A DNA stretch of 64,000 nt. Source: Cucumis sativus. Lineage: Eukaryota; Streptophyta; Magnoliopsida; Cucurbitales; Cucurbitaceae. A program made the translations under genes and the position numbers. The first letter of the stretch is position 1. Each line of letters begins with the position of its first letter. Location of the stretch: NCBI RefSeq assembly GCF_000004075.3, contig NC_026658.2, positions 9,424,001 to 9,488,000 of the forward strand, read 5' to 3'. The notes beneath the pieces were generated by a model that saw only the letters and a program-made list of their open reading frames with translations, was not told the DNA's origin and made no database searches. Below are positions 45,371-63,838 of the stretch, one piece after another.

Positions 45371-46500
45371 ACTGTATAGAGATGTTTGAAGAATAGATAG
45401 GGGAGGAAACATTTTTAAAAATTATTCAATATGATTGTGAAATAACGTTATTGACAAATTTGGTATGGTTTCCTTCGTATCCACAAAATTAAAGGTTGCA
45501 AAAATCTAATGGGATAAAATAAAATCTAGAGAATATTGATTTAAACAAATAAATATGATTTACATACTATTTTAGCAATGCTACTAGTAAAAAATAAAGA
45601 AATTTGATTTCATAGAAGAGGAAGAGAGATTTCTAAGGAATAAAGTTTAAAATAATAATAAATATTGAATAAATTAGACGAAATTTGTTTATAATTAACA
45701 TTTTATATACATATCCACTATATTAATCATATTTTGTGTAGTTGATTCAACGTGTATCACATCTTTACTTGAATAATTGTGTAATGTTAGCATAGGTTGC
45801 AACAAGTCGATCCTTCCCTTGACATACATTTGAGTTGGAAGAGAATCGACTTAAAGATGTCCATTTTCAAGAGTGAAAGAGAGGCAGTGAAGGAAATAAA
45901 TGCATGATGTAAACTTGGAAGAGTCACATCCATGTTCCCATCTCATATACATATATGTGTGTTGGTATATTTTGAAATTACAATCAGATGGCACCACCCA
46001 ACTTCAACAAGATTTGATTTCTTCTCATCAGCGTTTGTTCATTTCTTGTTTTATTTTATTTTTTTCCTAAGCTCATTTCACCCATTTTTACATTTTCTTA
46101 AAGTTTAATTTAATTTAATTTAATTGTGAAAAAATGATTTACACTAAGTTTGATATTATTATTCGTTTGACTTCTATAAACATTACAAACTATTATTATT
46201 GGACCAAAAAACAATTACTTAGAATACATTGTTAGACGTAAATTTTAATATCTAGAATGTGTACGGTTACGGGGTAAGAATGACACTGTGGTAATATTTT
46301 AAAGTGTTCTAATTAGTTTTGTTTCTAAAATCAACACAAATATCACTTTTTATAGTTTTAATAAATTTTTATTGGAAGAGTGGTTTTGAAATGCTTATAA
46401 AAGGCAAAGTTGAGAGCCTATTTTGGTTTTTCTGGGGTAAATTAACCTTATACAGACCATTCATCTAAACCTTTTTCAAAGATCTTGATAGAAGAACTCT
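45371..46500. other. Intergenic spacer between the MCTP gene and the BAHD cluster
   Basis: 3' UTR of the MCTP gene, then AT-rich text without a gene. From about 46260 the sequence matches the 3' flank of BAHD copy 3 (61413 onward), so the duplicated segment begins there. Confidence 0.5.
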
Positions 46501-47235
46501 TTACTCTTTGAAATACTCCATATGCTTCATCTGTAACTGTATTGCTATGATGATCGAACCATTATTGTTTGACCCTGGCATGATGAACACCTTCCCATCA
46601 TAAGCTAACAGTGATGGTCCAACATAATTTGGGTGTCCCCTCCCAAAATCTGCATCATATATTGACATTGACAACCAAGACACTGTAGATAGATTCAGGT
46701 TGCTCAAGGATGTGCCTTTAACTCGAACAATGGATGAAGATGACGACGATGATGTTCTCGTCCAACATATGTCCTCTTCTGTTGTTAGAAAGTCTATTGC
46801 TGATGTCACGTATATATCAGTCATCTTCCATGATGCTTCTCTTATCTTTTTGGCAGCATAGCTTAATGGTTGAGACATTAACTCCCCAAATTCGCACTGC
46901 GGAGTTATGCTAATCAAGGCTGCATTTCCACAAAAGTTTTTAGGGATGGGTTTCCTAAGTCGTTGTCTTACGTTAACAACTATTTGAACCATTGTTGATA
47001 GGTTGCTCTTGTCATTGTCGATGTTACGGGCTTTGCTTGCACACACCCATATGTGTCCCGTGATCGATTCATATCGACTGTATGGTGATGGTTGCAGTAG
47101 TACTTCATTGACATCTACCGATTTCTTGATGTTTTGATTAGTTGGATTTGAAGAATTTGCTCTCATTCTTAGCTTTTCAACTTGCTCCTTGGTAAGTTTC
47201 AACAATGTGGATTTGGTTTCTTTCATCTTCTCCTC
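46501..47235 (-). pseudogene. BAHD acyltransferase copy 1: orphan second exon
   Basis: Open reading frame of 244 codons equal to exon 2 of the neighbouring BAHD copies, starting at the acceptor (..GAACAG then GAGGAGAAG). The matching first exon, with start codon and HxxxD motif, is absent: similarity to the other copies' intron stops at about 47400 and unrelated sequence follows. The conserved DFGWG motif reads DFGRG (codon at 46641-46639). The C terminus ends in FKE at a stop, without the KKFFYEDL tail of copies 2 and 3, because of a small change near 46500. With no N-terminal half it cannot be a working enzyme. Confidence 0.85.
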
Positions 47236-47399
47236 CTGTTCAATGATTTAAAATTTTAGAGATATAATTTTGGTAATTGTACTTTAAGAAACATTTTTTT
47301 TAAAATTTTAACCCTACATTTTCTGTAAATCTTGAAAGGCCTTTCAACTGTTAGCCAATGGTCAACTTTTTTTCTTCAAAATATATGTTTATCTTCTCA

Positions 47400-50679: not shown

Positions 50680-51020
50680 TCCTTATTATCTATTATTTGA
50701 AGTACTAATGTATACTGGAGTTCCCAACTTTCAAATTGGTTACATTGTTACGTTTCCATTCCACTTTTAGTTCTTTTATATTTTCTTTCCTTCATCTTTT
50801 TCAATGTAAGTTTGGATTCATCGTAACAATAAGGATAATCCATTATGTGGTCTTTTGAAATTATATAATATCACAATGGCTTACTAGCAAAATAAATATA
50901 TATTTTAGGTTTGGATAAATAGCAAAAGTAATTATACAAATGACAAAACTAAAATATTAATGATAAAATTAAAAAATTAATTGAACACAAATATATAAAT
51001 TGACAAAAATAATAAAAATC
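50680..51020. repeat. Left flank of the BAHD duplication, copy 2 side
   Basis: Aligns along its length with 56468-56811: TGTATACTGGAGTTCCC, TTTCAAATTGGTTACA, AAGTTTGGATTCATC, CCATTATGTGGTCTTTTGAA, ACACAAATA..AAATTGACAAAAATAATAA, ending AAAAATCCAAC in both. Confidence 0.85.
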
Positions 51021-51171
51021 CAACCTTCAAATAAAGCCTCACAAAATAAAACTCACCAAAAATACACTAAAATAAAACAAGGTTAGTAATTAATGTATCC
51101 AATAAACCAAGAACAAACCCTCTATCTTCTTTTAACTTTTCAACTTCTCTCCACTTTCAACCTATTTTCCA

Positions 51172-51173
<2 letters not shown>

Positions 51174-51204
<31 letters not shown>
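51174..51204 (+). repeat. Poly-A tract of about 31 bp
   Basis: Uninterrupted A run in the 575-bp segment that is specific to the copy 2 locus. Could be the tail of a retroposed sequence, but no element body is recognised to its left. Confidence 0.7.
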
Positions 51205-51206
<2 letters not shown>

Positions 51207-51445
51207 ATCGTGCTTGAAACTCTCTTGTCAAAATCCATGAAGACATGAAGCTCTCTAATATATGTTCATTAGAAGCTCTAGCACTGGAGGAAAAAAATCA
51301 TCGGACTAAGTGAAGCTTTCCATTATCTGTTCGTTTGAAATTTGGCCCTGGCATGACAAGTTTGCCACTAATATTTATTTTTCTTTCCGATTCACCACTT
51401 AGTGTAAGATTCTCATGGTACAAGGTTGTCTTTTGAAGTGTTTGA

Positions 51446-51595
51446 ATACCCATTAATTTTTTTAAAAATGCTTTTTGTCATGTATGACATTTATACTATA
51501 AATTGTTAAAATATATTCATATCTTTAAAATTATTATTATTTTCAATTTATTTTGATAAAAATTAACTAAATTAAGATTTATTAAATATCTAGAG
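51446..51595 (+). repeat. Second copy of the MCTP-intron repeat
   Basis: Closely matches 43880-44040. The match ends at AATATCTAGA, exactly where homology to the BAHD 3' flanks (GTGTTCTA(A/G)TTAGTTTTG) starts, so this is a junction between two unrelated repeated segments. Confidence 0.75.
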
Positions 51596-51784: not shown

Positions 51785-53957
51785 TCAAAGATCTTCATAG
51801 AAAAACTTCTTGAAATCCTCCATATGCTTCATATGCAACTGTATTGCTACAATAATCGAACCATCATTGTTTGGCCCTGGCATGATGAATGTCTCTCCAT
51901 CACAATCTAACATTAATGGTCCAACATAATCTGGGTGTCCCCACCCGAAATCAGCGTCATATATTGGCATTGACAACCACGACACTACAGATAAATTTGG
52001 GTTGCCCAAGTATGTGTTTCTAACTTGAACAATGGAGGAAGAAGATGACGACGATGTTCTCGTCCAACATATGTCCTCATGTGTTGTTAGAAAGTCTATC
52101 GCTGATGTCACGTATTCATCAGTCATCTTCCATGATGCTTCTCTTATCTTTTTGGCAGAATAGCTTAATGGTTGAGACATTAACTCCCCAAAATTGGACT
52201 GCAGAGTTACGCTAATCAAGGCTGCATTTCCACAAAAGTTTTTAGGGATGGGTTTCCTAAGTCGTTGTCTTACGTTAACAACTATTTGAACCATTGTTGA
52301 TAGGTTGCTCTTGTCATTGTTGATGTTACGAGCTTTGCTTGCACACACCCATATGTGTCCCGTGATCGATTCATATCGACTGTATGGAGATGGTTGCAGT
52401 AGTACTTCATTGACATCTACCGATTTCTCGATGTTTTGATTAGTTGGATTTGAAGAATTTGCTCTCATTCTTAGCTTTTCCACTTGCTCCTTGGTAAGTT
52501 TCAACAATGCGAATTTGGTTTATTTCATCTTCTCCTCCTGTTCAATGATTTAAAATTTTAGAGATATAATTTTGGTAATTATACTTTATGAAACTTTTTT
52601 TAAAAGAATTTAACCCTACATTTTCTGTAAATCTTGATGGTCAACTTTGTTTTCTTCAAAATATGTGTTTATCTTCTCGCTTAGAGACTTATAAATCTAT
52701 TTGAATATTGATTCTTTTCTTGTATGAAAATTATTGTTGGTATTATTATTATTTAACTTCCGTCAGAAATGAACATTTTTACATATGACAAATTGAATAA
52801 AAATATTCACAAACTATGAAAAATTACAGATTCTATCAATGATAGACAATGATAGAGATTGATAGCAAACTTTTTGATTTTATCGATGATAGATATTAAT
52901 AGACATAACATAAAAGTTTTATTATATTTTGTAAATATTTTTAACAATTATTTCATTTATAACAATTTTGACATATATATTAAATTAGAAAAACAATTAT
53001 AGAGTGCAACTTTTGAATATTCAATAATTAAAAAGTGATTTATTTGAGAAAAATCAACTAGAAACAGTAAAGTTTCTCTATTACTTTCTACTCAATCTTA
53101 AACTAATTTTGCCTAAGAAAAATAGACTATTTGACACACCGTCAACAAATTTAGAAAAAGAAGAATAATTTCAACCTAATTAAGAAAAGATATTTCATGT
53201 ATATAACTAAAGCTATATATATGGATCCATTAAGGTGAAATTCAACCAAACCTAAGAATTGAACCAAAGAGATGGAATTTTAGTTCATAATTTAACTTAC
53301 CTTATAGTCGGAGCAACCTATGACAAATGGCAATACGTGGTATTCATAGTGGAAGAATCGTGGCGGGGAAAACGGTTTTTGTGCTTGAAGAACATTTCGA
53401 TCATGTGACGGTTGCAAGATACTCTTTGCCGTCTTCTCCCCTCGTGCAATGCTGGCCCACGAGTTTATGAACATAATGGCAGAGACCCCATCGACGAGAG
53501 TGTGAGAAACGTTGAGGCCAATAACAAGTCCACCACAACTGAATCTCGTCACTTGAACAACAAACAATGGTACATCTTCGATCGGTGAATTATAATCTAC
53601 CTTAGGAGTGAGTTTTCTTAACCCATCAGCGTGTGTGAAGTCACTGCAATCATCGAGTGTTCCACCATAGGAAGCTTCGATGAATAAGGCACCTGCAGCA
53701 CAACAGTGGAGCTCGAATCGACTACCAACGATCAAGCGGAGGCGTCCGGCAAAAGGGTAGTAAGGTACAAGGATTTCGCTTAGGGAGCTTTTTAAGGTGT
53801 CAACAACGACGGCAGCGTCGAGGAATTTGTAGACATAGACGGTTGTAGAGTAAGCCCATGCCCTAAATTGATCAGCCTCTGATAACGAAAGTGTGAGATT
53901 GGGAGTTGGGAGGTTAGGAATGATGGTTGAGGAGGAATGGATGGTTATAGACTCCAT
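51785..53957 (-). pseudogene. BAHD acyltransferase copy 2, nonsense-mutated
   Basis: Exon 1 is 53957-53301 (219 codons, HTLVDG intact, donor GTAAGT) and exon 2 is 52537-51785. Exon 2 opens GAG GAG AAG ATG AAA then TAA (52522-52520), where copies 1 and 3 have GAA; a single G-to-T change truncates the protein at codon 225, before the DFGWG motif. The remainder of exon 2 is open (240 codons) with DFGWG intact and the same length as copy 3, so the lesion looks recent. BAHD enzymes use acyl-CoA to acylate alcohols or amines in specialised metabolism. A 224-residue half-protein would lack one catalytic face. Confidence 0.85.
52795..52945. repeat. TATC/GATA repeat in the intron of BAHD copy 2
   Basis: TCTATCAATGATAGACAATGATAG and ATCGATGATAGATATTAATAG words. 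The orthologous part of copy 3's intron (62660-62830) has them too, so the repeat predates the duplication. Confidence 0.55.
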
Positions 53958-56467: not shown

Positions 56468-56811
56468 AACTATTATTATTTGGAGTACCGATGTATACTG
56501 GAGTTCCCGACTTTCAAATTGGTTACAGTATTACGTTTGCATTCAACTTTTAGTTCTTTTGTACTTTCTTTTCAGTTTCTTTTCCTTCTACTTTTTCAAT
56601 TTAAGTTTGGATTCATCATAACAATAATGATATTCCATTATGTGGTCTTTTGAATTTATATATAATATAACAACGGCCAACTACCAAAATAAATATTTTA
56701 GGTTTAGATAAATACCAAAATAATTATATAAATGAAAAAATTAAAAAGTTAATTAAACACAAATAATATAAATTGACAAAAATAATAACATTGCAACTAA
56801 AAATCCAACAA
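56468..56811. repeat. Left flank of the BAHD duplication, copy 3 side
   Basis: Homologous to 50680-51020. Homology stops at AAAAATCCAAC (56801-56809 region), marking the left edge of the inserted element. An extra ACATTGCAACT just before it is absent from the other copy. Confidence 0.85.
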
Positions 56812-56820
56812 CGGTTGTTG
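56806..56820. repeat. Perfect 7-bp inverted repeat at the element's left edge
   Basis: CAACAAC, one G, then GTTGTTG. It straddles the point where homology with the other duplicate breaks. Confidence 0.7.
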
Positions 56821-56840
56821 TTTTCATTTTTAATAAAAAA

Positions 56841-57196
56841 CGTCAAGAATTTTTCTGAAACATCATTCTTGACGTTTATTAAACGTTTTTCTTGACGTTT
56901 TTAAAACATCAAGAAATATCTATTAATTTTTTGACATTCTTAAAACGTCAAGAAGCGTATGAATTCGACATGCTTGACGTTTCTTAAACGTCAAGAATTT
57001 AAAATTTTACTCGACGTTTTAAAAACCGTCAAGAAATTTATAAAAAAATCCTTGACGTTTTGAAAAATGTCAAGAAATTTATAAAAAAAATCCTTGACGT
57101 TTTTAAAAACGTCAAGAAATTTATAAAATATTCTTGACGTTTTTAAAACGTCAAGACTATTGTAAAAATTTCTTGACGTTTTAAAAACGTCAAGAA
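56841..57196. repeat. Left subterminal array of palindromic TTCTTGACG units
   Basis: About nine units of ~27 bases, each close to TTCTTGACGTTTTTAAAACG followed by TCAAGAA, separated by 10-20 AT-rich bases. Each unit can fold on itself. The arms vary (GACG, GACA, GACAT) while the self-complementarity is largely kept. Confidence 0.85.
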
Positions 57197-57206
57197 TTTA
57201 GTCGTA

Positions 57207-57220
57207 AAACGACGTCGTTT
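57207..57220. repeat. 14-bp perfect palindrome AAACGACGTCGTTT
   Basis: Fully self-complementary, just inside the left array. It is followed by an AAACCCTAA telo-box-like word (57247-57255) and less AT-rich leader-like sequence, so it may be part of a promoter carried by the element. Confidence 0.6.
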
Positions 57221-57239
57221 CATTTAAGTCCATTTTCTC

Positions 57240-58060
57240 TTTTCTAAAACCCTAATTAGTCGTGCGTGAAGGGAGCCTTTAGACGTCGTCGAAATCCTTT
57301 CCCTCTCCAGCCTACATGATCCGAAGTGTTATTATATATATATATAAGAAAATATTACGTTAATTCCATTTGAAAGCCCTAGATTTTTGCCCCTTTCGCG
57401 AAAACGTTCAACCTCTCCGGATCGAAAACGTTCTCCCTTCACTTCTGTTGTCGTTCAAGAACCTAGCAACACTTACGCCGTCTACCGTCAACTAAGTACC
57501 AGATCCTTCACCTTCGATTGTTCGTCGCCTGCTGTCCACTGAGTACCAGTACCTAGCTAACACTTCCACCATTCGACCGTTTTGTTGGTGCCTTTATGTT
57601 ATCGTTGCTCAATGGTATGCTTTTATTTGATCTGGGCTAAAATCTCATGGCAACCACGAGCAAGATGACCCCAACAAGAAGGACAAGAAACAACACCCCT
57701 CATCATCGTATTGGCGATCTCTTTTGAGGTCGCTGCATCTGTACTAAGAAAAATGGTGGATCAATGCGCGTTATATTTATTGTTCAACAAGAAAAATTGC
57801 GGAGTTTCGAATGAATGGAGACGTGAAAGCCTAAAGAATATCGCCACCACGACTGGAGAATGCAAATCAAGTAATAGCGACAGCGACATTAGGTATTGTA
57901 TGATTTATGTTCAACTGGCACTCATTTTTTTTTCTATAATATGGCATTTCCGCGCTATAGTTAGGTTGTTCACAAAGGAAGTATCACATGGCGGTAGGTT
58001 GTTAAGTGGGCGTTTCTATTTTATACTCTGCTTGCCTGTGTTCATTAATTTTATTTGATT
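57240..58060 (+). other. Internal segment of the CACTA-like element, unidentified
   Basis: Less AT-rich than its surroundings, resembling a 5' UTR: telo-box-like AAACCCTAA, repeated CTAAGTACCAG / TGAGTACCAG words (57493, 57540), then an ORF at 57711-58058 with one hydrophobic stretch (YVQLALIFFSIIW). No family recognised. It may be captured gene sequence. Confidence 0.35.
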
Positions 58061-58111
58061 ATTTCTTTCAAAACTGGAGCAGATTCCAATTTATGCACTG
58101 GAATTATGTTG

Positions 58112-58115
<4 letters not shown>

Positions 58116-58150
<35 letters not shown>
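58116..58150. repeat. (AT)n microsatellite
   Basis: About 35 bases of alternating A and T, then ACACAC. Confidence 0.9.
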
Positions 58151-58158
<8 letters not shown>

Positions 58159-58624
58159 TCATCGTTACTTTACTTTAACTAAAATTAAAACAAATATATA
58201 TGAAAGTTAAATCACAATAATGATAGAAGAGGGTTATTTTTTGTGCACATGTAAAGGTGTGGTTTTATGGAAAGAATTCAAAATTTAGATGGAGTATTGA
58301 ATTAACACCTAAAAACATAATTCGAGTTGAATAGCTTCTTAGCAGTGCATGTACTAATTAGTTACAGTTACAAGTGTGTATATGGTAAACATTATTGCAC
58401 TCAAATGATCTTAATCTAACAGCCTGTTTGGAATAATACTTTACAAATACTGAAAATTACTAAAAAGAAAAAAGATGAGTTCTTAATTAGTTAGTGTTAC
58501 AAAAGAAGCATTCTTGAATATTTGAAAAGTCACTCCAAACAAATCCAAGCTTTTAACCAATAGAAGGTGTTTGTATAACTTTGCCAGAAGAATCAACTAA
58601 TAGCTAAACACAGTTAAATCTAAG

Positions 58625-58770
58625 ATCAGAAGTTATGGCATAATCAGGAGGAACCACTGAAACATAAACCTCTGTCATTTCTTCTTTTATCTTCTTCTCT
58701 ACCTCTTCTGTGCTGTCAAACTCACTAATGATGGCTATACCTTATTCTTTGGTGTCTCCGGTTGAAATAA
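58625..58770 (-). other. Possible captured exon, unidentified protein
   Basis: On the minus strand a stretch after an AATAAG acceptor-like site (about 58745) reads GIAIISEFDSTEEVEKKIKE then EMTEVYVSVVPPDYAITSDL and a stop. The composition is protein-like rather than AT noise. Family not recognised. Confidence 0.3.
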
Positions 58771-59126
58771 TTGCATTAGCTCCTTATAAGATTCTGTGTA
58801 ATATTTGTGTGTCAATCATTTTTTTAGTACAATAATACATATTCTATAGAAAGTTGCTGCTATAGGGGTTTTAAAAAAATGGATATTAACAGGTATGGGT
58901 ATTGATCATGGTGCCACATAGTTGGAGAACCACGATCATAATAGTCAGCATTCATTCTACTTTCTTTCTTTTTTTCTTTTGGAATATGCCTTCTAATTTC
59001 TGTTTGTACGTTATCCATAAACCACTGAGAGCAAAACTCCATCTCCTGGTTTTCAAAAAGAAAACATGGGTGTTCAATTGTTTTTGGTTCAGTGTGTAAC
59101 TTCACGACTTCTCTCTATTGATTCAG

Positions 59127-60552
59127 TTTGTAAACTTCACAAAGCTCATGTCTGAGAGCATAGAAGCGTCAAAGAAGGAAGCAGCATTTGCCTTGGCCAC
59201 ACTCATGGAAATTCCATTTCAATACAGAGCTACCCTCTCCTTGCCAAATTCAAAGTAAGCCAGGATTTTCAACTTCAATTGAACGGTTGAAATGTCGTGT
59301 TTTTGTTATTTGGCATTCTGATTAACCAAGTAAATTAGCCTACATTGTGATTGTGTTATGTGTTATTTAAGATTTTAGGCCTAAGGTTCAAATAGTTGTC
59401 ATAAAAACTCTCTAACCCTATTGATGTTTATGTAATTTGTATTATCTCATATTTTCTCTGTTAATAGCTTAATAAAACTACTATCTTCCTCAGCCCGTGG
59501 ATATAGCTATGTTGATCTTTATTGTTTGCACTTTCTCGCTTTCTTTATTTGTTGATTTCGTAACAATTTCTGTTTTGGGTTTGGAAAAATAACACACTAA
59601 CTATTATGCAGGAGAGAATCTGTATATGGAAAAAGTGCAGGGCCACTTCCTCCTCCTCCTGAAGTCATCAATTATGACAATGCAGTTGCAAACCAAATTT
59701 TGGAGAATGCAAAAGCTGAAAAACATAGTTCCTCATCTGAATCGGTAACTTCGCTTTTATTTTATTTATGGAGTTTTCTAAGAATGAGAGAACCAAACAT
59801 GTGTGGCTTTACAATTACTCTAGGAAAATTTTGTTGAAATCTGGGGTTTAAGATTGATTAAGGCAACAAGTTGTGAGAGCCTTGTCTACTGAAACAAAAG
59901 AAATTTCTCTTTTGTTTCATGACTTCATTAATATAAATTATTAATTAAATGTCTCTTGTTCAAGGTCTGCCCCATATGCCTCACAAACCCAAAGGACATG
60001 GCTTTTGCATGTGGTCATACAGTAAGTTCTCTACCTTTGAACTTCTAACAGTGCTAATGTTTGCTAATATTTTCTAATGGAATAAAAAATGTTTGAATGG
60101 TTTCATATTCGTATTACTTGGCCAAGACACTCATGAATGTTTGAATGGTTTCATATTCGTATTATTTGGTCATACAGTAGGTTTTGCTGTTAAAGTATCT
60201 TTCTAATGTTTATTTTTCCAATATATTCAACTGACCTTAATTATCCACTAATTTGAATTTTTAAGTTTGTTGATTTGATGGTGATTTTTTAGGCTGCTTC
60301 AACTATTTCACAAGCATTGCATGCTATTTTATTTTAGTCAGTATACTGAATCCATTTCTTTATGTCAACTTTTCTCTGTTATATGTTTAGAATATGTTGA
60401 AAAGAATAAATAGTACCCTAAATTTATCTTTTTGAACTTAACCTTTTAGTTGATATTTTAATGAACATTTATAATTTCACCAAGTGTTGGAGATTTTATT
60501 GGTACTTAATTTTATATTTTTATTTTTACAGACTCTGGCCTTATGTGTTTGA
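59127..60552 (+). pseudogene. Captured 3' fragment of an RGLG-type (copine/RING) E3 ubiquitin ligase gene
   Basis: Exon-like blocks with intact splice sites: 59127-59254 (FVNFTKLMSESIEASKKEAA, ALATLMEIPFQYRATLSLPN), 59612-59744 (GPLPPPPEVINY), 59965-60021 (VCPICLTNPKDMAFACGHT) and 60532-60552 (TLALCV, stop). They join in one frame (113 codons with the stop). The order matches the end of the vWA/copine domain, the proline-rich linker and the start of the RING finger of RGLG ligases. The RING stops after C-x2-C...C-x-H: the remaining zinc ligands are missing, and no vWA N-terminal exons are present. It can therefore not be a normal ligase. It sits inside the CACTA-like element, so it is read as a gene fragment carried by the transposon. 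Confidence 0.75.
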
Positions 60553-61003
60553 AGCTATTTTCTGATCGATCCATTGTAGTGATGAAGCTACGAAGCAAGT
60601 GATTGATGTTTGGTTAGTGACAAGATTTATTGTAATTTTGTTATTCATGACAATATAACCTTGTTGTATTTAGTTTCTTTGTAAAAATATATTACCCACG
60701 TTCAGTTTCTATTTTGCTTGTATTTGTCCCTTCGGAAAATTTCGATAGATTTTCTACACTTAGTTTCTTTGTAAAAATGTTATCTATGAAATCTAATGTA
60801 AAGCCTATTTCATTATGTATATGTAAAGTCTTGGAATTGAATATATATGGTGAATGGTTTTATTTATATATGTTTGAGATTTGAAACTATATTTGATGAA
60901 TATCAAATATCTATGAAACTGTTGCTGGACAATTACAGGACAATCATCTTTCCATTACAGCATAATTCAATTACAATTTCTTTTTTTAAAAAAATTAAAA
61001 AAT

Positions 61004-61391
61004 GCTTGACGGTTTTAAAATGTCATGAACAATTGCAAGCTTAACGGTTTTAAACTATCATGAACAATTGCATTTTTTACGGTTGACAAATGTCAAGAAC
61101 AATTACATTCTTGACAGTTTTAAAATGTCATGAATATTAAAATTCTTGACGGGTTTAAAATGTCATAAATCAGTTCATCCTTGACAGTTTTAAAATGTCA
61201 TAAACAATACCAGTCTTGACGGTTCTAAAACGTCATGAACATAAGTATACTTGACGTTTATAAAACGTCAACGTTCACTATTCTTGACGTTTAATCAACC
61301 GTCAAGAACTTTGCCTTTCTTGACGCTGGCTTCAACGACGGTTTTAAAACCGTCAAGGGAGCCTTCTCTTGACAGTTTAAAAACATCAAGA
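61004..61391. repeat. Right subterminal array of palindromic TTGACGG units
   Basis: About eleven units of TTGAC(G/A)GTTTTAAAA(T/C)GTCA(T/A)GAA type. Those nearest the terminus (61250-61391) are the most perfect palindromes (GACGGTTTTAAAACCGTC), while inner ones are diverged (..TGTCATGAAC). Confidence 0.85.
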
Positions 61392-61412
61392 GAGCCTGTT
61401 TTTGTAGTAGTG

Positions 61413-61642: not shown

Positions 61643-63838
61643 TCAAAGATCTTCATAGAAGAACTTTTTGAAATACTCCATATGCTTCATCTGCAACTGT
61701 ATTGCAACGATGATCAAACCATCATTGTTTGGCCCTGGCATGATGAACATCTTCCCATCATAAGCTAACATTGATGGTCCAACATAATCTGGGTATCCCC
61801 ACCCAAAGTCTGCATCATATATGGGCATCGACAACCAAGACACTATAGATAGATTCGGGTTGCTCAAGGATGTGCCTTTAACTCGAACAATGGAGGAAGA
61901 TGATGACGATGATGTTCTCGTCCAACATATGTCCTCTTGTGTTGCTAGAAAGTCTATCGCTGACTTCACGTATTCATCAGTCATCTTCCATGATGCTTCT
62001 CTTATCTTTTTGGCAGCATAGCTTAATGGTTGAGACATTAACTCCCCAAACTCACACTGCGGAGTTATGCTAATCAAGGCTGCATTTCCACAAAAGTTTT
62101 TGGGGATGGGTGTCCTAAGCCGTTGTCTTATGTTTACAACTATTTGAACCACCGTTGATTGTTTGCTCTTGTCATTGTCGATGTTACGGGCTTTGCTCGC
62201 ACACACCCATATGTGCCCCGTAATCAATTCATATCGACTGTGTGGACATGGTTGCAATAATACTTCATTGACATCTACCACTTTCTCGATGTTTTGATTA
62301 GTTGGAGTTGAAGAATTTGCTCTCATTCTTAGCTTTTCAACTTGCTCCCGGGTAAGTTTCAACAATGCAGATTTGGTTTCTTTCATCCTCTCCTCCTATT
62401 CAATGATTTAAAATTTTAGAGTTATATTTTTGGTAATTGTACTTTATGAATCCTTTTTTTTCTTATTAGATTAAAACCCTACATTTTCTGTAAATCTTAA
62501 AAGACCCTTCAATTGCTAGGTGATGGTCAACTTTTTCTTCTTCAAAATATGTGTTTATATTCGTGCTCCGAGACTTATAAATCTATTTTAATATTGATTC
62601 TTTTCTGGTATGAAAATTATTGTTAGTATTATTATTATTTAACTTCAACAAGAAGCGAACATTTTTAAATATAGCAAAATAGATCAAAATATTTACAAAC
62701 TATAAAAAAAATTTAGATTTTATCGGTATTAGGCAACGATAGACACTAATGACAAACTTTCAAATTCTATCAATGATAGATACTAATAGAAAATTTTTAT
62801 TATATTTTGTAAGTATTAATTTTAACAATTTTGTCATTTACAATAATTTTCATATATATATTAAATTAGAAAAATAATTATAGAGTGCAAACTTTTGAAA
62901 ATTCAATAATTAAAAAGTGATTTATTATAGCAAAATTAACTAAAAACGGTAAAGTTCTCAATTGCTTTCTTGCCTAAAAGAATATACTATTTAATACATT
63001 GTCAACAAATTTAGAAAAAAATAAAAATAAAAATCATTTCAACCAAAAAAAAAGATGTTCCATGTGAGAATCAAGGGAAGGTATATAACTAAAATTATAT
63101 ATATGGATCATTAAGAAGAAATTCAATAAAACCTAAAAATTGAACCATAGAGATGGAATTTCAATTCATAATTTAACTTACCTTAGAGTTGGAGCAACCT
63201 ATGACGAATGGCAATATATCATATTCACAATGGTAGAACTGTGGTGGGCAAAATGGTTTTTGTGGTTGAAGAACATTTCGATCATGCAACGGTTGCAAGA
63301 TACTCTTCGCCGTCTTATCCCCTCGTGCAATGCTGGCCCATGAGTTGATGAACATAATGGCAGAGACCCCATCGACGAGAGTGTGTGAAACGTTGAGACC
63401 AATAACAAGTCCACCACAACTGAATCTTGTCACTTGAACAAGAAACATCGGTACATCTTCGATCGATGAATTATAATCTACCTCAGGAGCGAGTTTTCGT
63501 ACAACATCAGTAGGTGTGAAGTCACCGAAATCATCAAGTGTTCCACCATAGGAAGCTTCAATGAATAGGGCACCTGCAGCACAACAGTGGAGCTCGAGTC
63601 GACCACCAACGATCACGTGGAGGCGCCCAGCAAAAGGGTAGTAAGGTACAAGGATTTTGCTAAGGGAGCTTTTTAAGGAGTCAACAATGACGGCGGCGTT
63701 GGGAGATTTGTAGACGTAGACAGTTGTGATGTGAACCCATGCTCTAAATTGATCAGCCACCGATAATGGAAGTGTGAGATTAGGAGTTGGGAGGTTAGGA
63801 ATGATGATTGAGGAGGAATGAATGGTTATAGACTCCAT
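61643..63838 (-). CDS. BAHD acyltransferase copy 3, intact (469 aa)
   Basis: Exon 1 63838-63182 (219 codons), exon 2 62395-61643 (250 codons plus stop); acceptor ..GAATAG then GAGGAGAGG. The BAHD signature HxxxD is HTLVD (H152, D156) within LNVSHTLVDGVSAIMFINSW, and the structural DFGWG motif is present in exon 2 (DADFGWGYPDYVGPSML). Length is normal for the family. BAHD enzymes transfer acyl groups from CoA thioesters to alcohols or amines in the cytosol; the general look is of the vinorine synthase/alcohol acyltransferase side of the family or hydroxycinnamoyl transferases, but the substrate cannot be told. It is the only one of the three copies here without a lesion. Its 3' side is split from the ancestral flank by the CACTA-like element. 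Confidence 0.9.
62660..62830. repeat. TATC/GATA repeat in the intron of BAHD copy 3
   Basis: AAATATAGCAAAATAGATCAA, then TCTATCAATGATAGATACTAATAG; the counterpart of 52795-52945 in copy 2. Confidence 0.55.

Follow-up and report, generated by a model that had tools for sequence, protein, structure and literature searches.

A truncated, probably Pack-type CACTA transposon carrying pieces of three host genes in the cucumber genome

The element and its features

The DNA analysed here, referred to as the window, is a stretch of 64,000 nucleotides from Cucumis sativus (C4:9424001-9488000, NC_026658.2); coordinates without a contig prefix are positions in this window. At 56811-61412 it holds a CACTA-family element of 4.6 kb, located between an intact gene for a BAHD acyltransferase and the left flank of that gene. 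The cargo of the element consists of partial DNA copies of three host genes: a squalene epoxidase gene (SQE), a potato inhibitor I gene (PI-I) in antisense orientation and an RGLG ubiquitin ligase gene. Taken together, the features listed below and the comparison with other family members make it very probable that the element is a non-autonomous, left-truncated transposon of the Pack-type CACTA class with three gene pieces as cargo. The features of the element and its left flank are as follows (L numbers denote loci fetched from the genome).

56471-56810, no strand: left flank, homologous to 50687-51024, which lies next to another BAHD copy; the alignment reaches 56797, and the homology can be followed by eye as far as 56810
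56811-57220, plus: left subterminal palindrome array, spacing about 40 bp
57221-57321, plus: left backbone, 92% to L002, a sister bearing Transposase_21
57322-57699, no strand: interior stretch of unassigned origin, wholly or partly present in other SQE/PI-I elements too
57700-58117, plus: captured SQE fragment with 5' untranslated region, exon 1 (ATG at 57753, end near 57888) and a portion of intron 1; two deletions
58136-58910, minus: captured PI-I fragment, antisense to SQE and RGLG; decayed, with two TAG stops and a frameshift
58911-59001, no strand: unassigned stretch common to L032 and L022, ending where the RGLG segment is joined on, with 59002-59009 unmatched
59010-60143, plus: captured RGLG segment with introns kept, from C6:23952369-23951234
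59148-59254, plus: RGLG exon, counted from an internal ATG; frame open from 59100
59612-59744, plus: RGLG exon
59965-60021, plus: RGLG exon that contains the first half of the RING finger; the last RING exon of the donor is missing
60136-60183, plus: patchwork filler at the junction of the capture, composed of a copy of 60088-60124 followed by one of 60012-60028
60237-60788, no strand: interior block whose origin is not settled, found in many other loci within or outside RGLG-bearing elements
60785-60960, no strand: right backbone, common to many family members including the transposase-bearing C4:9774189
61001-61391, plus: right subterminal palindrome array, spacing 35 bp
61392-61412, minus: right CACTA terminus, CACTACTACAAAAACAGGCTC read inward

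The genome searched comprises 226.6 Mb in 88 contigs, 7 of which are large. Copy counts for the family ends, the RGLG pieces and the block 60237-60788 are minimum values (40 candidates each were scored, out of 312, 212, 371 and 68), and are also partly inflated, as unplaced contigs duplicate chromosomal places (e.g. C61 and C4:12528509; C24 and C4:13434179; C47 and C6:19428053). The block 60237-60788 itself is found, whole or in part, at dozens of other places among the best 40 of its 68 candidates.

Termini and subterminal arrays

The right edge of the element is exact. The CACTA terminus ending at 61412 is unique in the window (0 mismatches, 0.00 matches expected) and recurs with at most 3 substitutions in all 20 fetched right-end loci, the window included. 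The flanks of these loci represent 17 distinct sequences, with one flank common to L051, L054, L055 and L059. At these four loci (on C1, C50, C4 and C47) the 100-bp flanks are 99-100% identical, which would fit either duplicated segments or one place assembled repeatedly. In the genome as a whole, the 20-bp terminus occurs 157 times, compared to 0 occurrences of a control pattern read backwards.

The left edge lies at 56811, where the family sequence starts at ACGGTTGTTG and where the homology of the flank to the other BAHD-linked copy stops (about 56797-56810). An insertion with defined edges had been proposed in the original prediction, made from the letters of the window alone, and this holds to the base on the right, but the left edge had been placed at 56813. 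The window copy lacks the outer 26 bp at the left, which form the CACTA terminus, and about 40 bp just inside, near 56822. No match to the left terminus of the sister elements is present in the window at up to 3 mismatches, and the left terminus is deleted rather than merely divergent. The inverted terminal repeats of CACTA elements are thus found at both ends of the sisters but not of the window copy, which is a truncated member of a family with CACTA-type terminal repeats and not an intact element.

Both ends also carry palindrome arrays with a unit close to CTTGACGTTTTTAAAACGTCAAG. The palindromic 23-mer gives 14 two-strand matches at 9 sites when up to 3 mismatches are allowed, compared to 0.00 in 100 shuffles, and all matches fall inside 56891-57194 and 61005-61390, within the element. 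The CACTA-like terminus and the palindrome arrays in both subterminal zones had been recognized correctly from the start, and elements with the same terminus and arrays are present at many other places in the genome. The window copy thereby shows the subterminal arrays of short direct and inverted repeats that are described as a CACTA feature in the consulted part of PMC8978399.

A transposase of its own, which Pack-CACTA elements lack, is likewise not detected in the window copy. The longest stop-to-stop frame of the interior (57220-60990) is 129 amino acids, and Pfam searches of 10 of the 16 listed frames found no transposase, in line with what had been noted earlier. A larger intact gene running across the element was rejected; the RGLG exons form a 1.13-kb copy from an intact gene on C6.

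A mobile family with transposase-bearing sisters

The other members of the family retain what the window copy has lost. Of 19 other left-end loci, 17 have a left start of the CACTA type with at most 3 substitutions, and these represent 14 distinct places once assembly duplicates are removed. A target site duplication of 3 bp is a hallmark of the CACTA (En/Spm) superfamily, and it is perfect in five of the seven sister elements in which both ends can be read (TGT, TTT, GAT, TTG and ATC). These five elements are 1.0-6.9 kb in size, and three of them carry RGLG DNA: C5:20361465-20368329 (TGT), C1:18086944-18091085 (GAT) and C6:14491768-14496307 (TTG). As the RGLG-bearing sisters combine both CACTA ends with 3-bp duplications at other sites, the captured DNA has spread by transposition, which is the mobilisation that characterizes Pack-CACTA cargo. 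The smallest case described, L056 (C7:6057401-6058437), is a member of 1037 bp with both CACTA ends and the ATC duplication.

The tnp2-type transposase domain typical of the superfamily (Transposase_21) lies between matched ends of sisters at C4:9772476 (5.0-kb element, TTT) and C1:16368405 (7.9 kb, GAA/AAA), among places drawn from the best 150 of 435 candidates. The window copy is thus part of a large CACTA family in which other members have this domain. A Helitron or Pack-MULE was set aside on the CACTA ends, the 3-bp duplications and the Transposase_21 sisters, with no search made for Helitron and MULE features themselves. The termini may be acted on in trans by the transposase of the sisters, for which the palindrome arrays would be the subterminal binding sites. 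The window copy itself, having lost its left terminus, should have ceased to move.

The RGLG segment and its junction

The RGLG segment matches its donor on C6 at 96.7% over 1139 columns, introns included, with 30 substitutions in 1131 aligned bases (2.65%). The donor reads as an intact RGLG gene, with vWA/copine exons preceding the copied part and the last RING exon following it. Its joined exon pieces match Copine (E 3.6e-60) and RING (E 2.5e-9), and its best PDB matches are RGLG1, RGLG2 and RGLG5, while other RGLG-like places in the genome are 58-73% alike in protein. The original prediction of captured RGLG-type exons was therefore confirmed and its parent gene located, but the element holds fragments of three genes and not of one.

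Pieces of the C6 RGLG DNA occur in at least ten elements at ten different sites, the window included. All ten of these loci have the right terminus, and beyond it lie unrelated right flanks in which no more than 42 of 100 bases agree. The eight of ten loci that reach the right donor end all have it at 23951234. The left donor ends vary (23952615, 23952506, 23952369, 23952137 and 23951839), and in L033 and L034 the RGLG DNA extends left past 59010, as it does in the donor.

The junction at the right donor end is marked by the patchwork filler, which is found with at most one substitution in eight of the ten RGLG-bearing loci. Its second patch scores 14, compared to a maximum of 11 in 300 shuffles. 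Being copied from within the captured gene, the filler suggests that repair synthesis switched templates at the moment of capture. The presence of a templated filler at one and the same junction in eight copies is relevant to the way in which genes enter Pack-type elements, which is a matter of proposal in the sections of the literature consulted.

The squalene epoxidase and potato inhibitor I fragments

The SQE fragment has lost the start of the FAD-binding region by deletion. Its intact relative begins at C4:24915717 (donor-like gene C4:24915717-24916426), with joined exon pieces matching PF08491 (E 6.9e-122) and 7.84% substitutions relative to the fragment. A copy of the SQE piece that lacks the larger deletion is found in L032 (711 columns, 89.9%). 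The 77-amino acid exon alone gives a weak Pfam match (best E 0.006), and the fragment is named SQE because the downstream exons of the donor-like gene identify it.

In a similar way, the PI-I piece of the window alone is a weak Pfam match (E 0.032) and takes its name from an intact relative at C4:14794070-14794791 (gene at C4:14794184-14794420; PF00280, E 2.6e-21), from which it differs by 7.21% substitutions. Six elements carry the PI-I piece, being 69-86% alike in protein, compared to at most 46% for other members of the PI-I family. The TAG at 58735-58737 is present in all six element copies where the intact gene has TGG. The second TAG, at 58604-58606, is specific to the window copy and was not found in the five other element copies. 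With RGLG, PI-I and SQE, the element contains parts of host genes whose parents lie elsewhere in the genome, as is the case in Pack-CACTA elements.

Proposed order and mechanism of capture

The divergence from the donors is 7.8% for SQE, 7.2% for PI-I and 2.65% for RGLG, which suggests that RGLG was captured later, provided that rates and donors are comparable. This agrees with SQE and PI-I elements without RGLG at four other places (C4:10.02, C4:10.68, C5:14.07 and C5:18.70 Mb), where no RGLG match was found among all 35 candidates scored or in the fetched loci. The arrangement of the window is also present in L022 (C6:13.415 Mb). Since the left RGLG ends vary and L033 and L034 continue left into donor DNA, the left junction is read as a later join.

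These observations imply captures in at least two stages, and the window type is most readily explained by a fusion in which an SQE/PI-I element supplied the left half and an RGLG element the right half. In this sequence of events, the SQE and PI-I pieces would have been captured first. The RGLG piece would have followed later, once, during the repair of a break in which the template was switched within the RGLG gene, after which the joining of the two halves would have created the window type. The history can be read stepwise because a single assembly contains the intact donor or donor-like genes, elements with longer or shorter pieces, and sisters that bear a transposase.

Several observations weigh against this account. 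The filler and the right junction are missing from L033 and L034, where deletions cover both, so that a single RGLG capture is the simplest reading and not a proven one. A CACTA-type left start is missing from L003 and L014, and two of the seven readable duplication pairs differ by one base (GAA/AAA and ACA/ACG). In the window copy the lost left terminus makes the target duplication unreadable. The donor-like SQE gene is 7.8-9.2% away and two other places match the intron piece at 82%, so that the exact SQE donor is not fixed. Finally, both transposition in trans and template switching are deduced from structure.

For the capture step, a second route is tenable, although it is the less probable one. 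Two neighbouring elements with host DNA between them could lose the ends that face each other and then transpose together as a single unit. This tandem-insertion route concerns the capture step only and is compatible with the Pack-CACTA nature of the element. It has been proposed for Arabidopsis Pack-CACTA elements in the consulted sections of PMC8903248 and PMC13317346, and family members in tandem do exist in cucumber (L011/L012, with ends about 185 bp apart). However, no element is seen around the donor RGLG gene (C6:23949734-23956500), as judged solely from reading frames and a comparison with the window element. The filler, with both of its patches taken from within the captured gene, suggests template-switching synthesis, although end joining after aberrant excision could also leave such a filler. 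In the tandem pair itself, the right end of one element and the left end of the other lie at about 1213-1450 in element orientation, and L011 (contig C61) and L012 (C4) look like one place assembled twice.

A broader extension of the template-switching model is rather improbable. It would make the family an assembly line, in which single pieces are captured by template-switching repair and halves are then exchanged between elements. SQE, antisense PI-I and RGLG would have been combined by recombination rather than repeated capture, with some combinations transcribed as chimeric or antisense RNAs that touch the donor genes.

Fate of the captured pieces

In the 604 bases common to eight element copies, 4 substitutions fall in 190 exon columns, compared to 6 in 434 other columns. 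The captured exons thus evolve no slower than the rest, although these numbers are small. A splice donor is lost in one of the eight copies. In these bases the window copy shows no substitution relative to the majority, which suggests that the copies are young. The exons appear to behave as passengers without visible constraint, and the window copy is most likely inert.

It is very unlikely that the captured pieces function as a chimeric gene or give rise to small RNAs acting on the donor genes. In the window copy, the splice sites between the three RGLG exons are intact and 99 codons can be read without a stop, and a candidate last exon at 60532 would add a short tail to give a spliced frame of 105 codons. 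The PI-I piece is antisense to the others, and Tgm-Express1 of soybean yields chimeric transcripts according to the available part of PMC1947982. Yet the putative 105-codon frame ends with half a RING finger, the PI-I copies have a stop in common, SQE has lost its FAD-binding start, and the exon substitutions and lost splice donor described above also speak against such a role. A leftover of a local gene duplication with inserted repeats is hardly credible as an origin of the RGLG stretch, since it does retain the introns and exon order of the donor but lies inside the same right end in ten elements at ten sites with unrelated right flanks, and no further RGLG exons stand beside it in the window.

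The BAHD neighbourhood

The element is located downstream of the two-exon BAHD gene, 231 bp from its stop codon. Both exons of this gene are open:

61643-62386, minus: BAHD acyltransferase exon 2 (PF02458)
63173-63838, minus: BAHD acyltransferase exon 1 (PF02458), same gene as 61643-62386

A second BAHD copy (51785-53957) and a partial third copy (46265-47396) are also present in the window. The homology of the third copy to the element-bearing copy begins at 46265, which corresponds to 3 bp after the right end of the element, and the homology to the region ending at 51024, beside the second copy, ends near the left end of the element. A clean, undisturbed empty site was not found in these two other BAHD-linked copies of the window. 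Beside the second copy, 51025-51590 is a stretch of 566 bp with a long A run between two flank-homologous parts, and it has no match in the flanks of the element-bearing copy. The earlier idea that the element split a duplicated locus is only partly correct, in that it separates an intact BAHD gene from its left flank, but no gene is interrupted.

Comparison with known systems

No CACTA element of cucumber with captured genes appears in the titles and abstract openings listed in the open literature for cucumber CACTA transposons and for Pack-TYPE or gene capture in Cucumis sativus, with two of the papers also searched by term. The capture of genes by CACTA elements, in some cases from more than one donor, is described elsewhere in the consulted sections of PMC8903248, PMC1947982, PMC8978399 and PMC13317346. 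The combination had been thought undescribed, which does not hold, as elements with several captured genes are reported in the first two of these sources. New relative to the original prediction are the SQE exon 1 and antisense PI-I fragments, the proposed staging of the captures, the patchwork filler and the reading of the left junction as a later join.

As far as the available part of PMC8903248 goes, the closest relatives are the Pack-CACTA elements of Arabidopsis and maize, with CACTA ends, no transposase and host gene fragments that often come from more than one locus. The window copy differs in having lost one terminus, and here the donors, the stages of capture and a templated junction have been traced. 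Tgm-Express1 of soybean is a 5.7-kb CACTA-family element with five gene fragments comprising exons and introns (PMC1947982, consulted part). It lies in an intron and its exons are transcribed, whereas the cucumber element lies beyond a gene. The CACTA-like elements of Chenopodium, in the section of PMC8978399 at hand, also hold host gene fragments and subterminal repeats, but their fragments are located upstream of a retained transposase domain, which the window copy does not have. Gene shuffling by transposons of the Pack-CACTA type is thus a known phenomenon, of which the cucumber element is a well-traced example.

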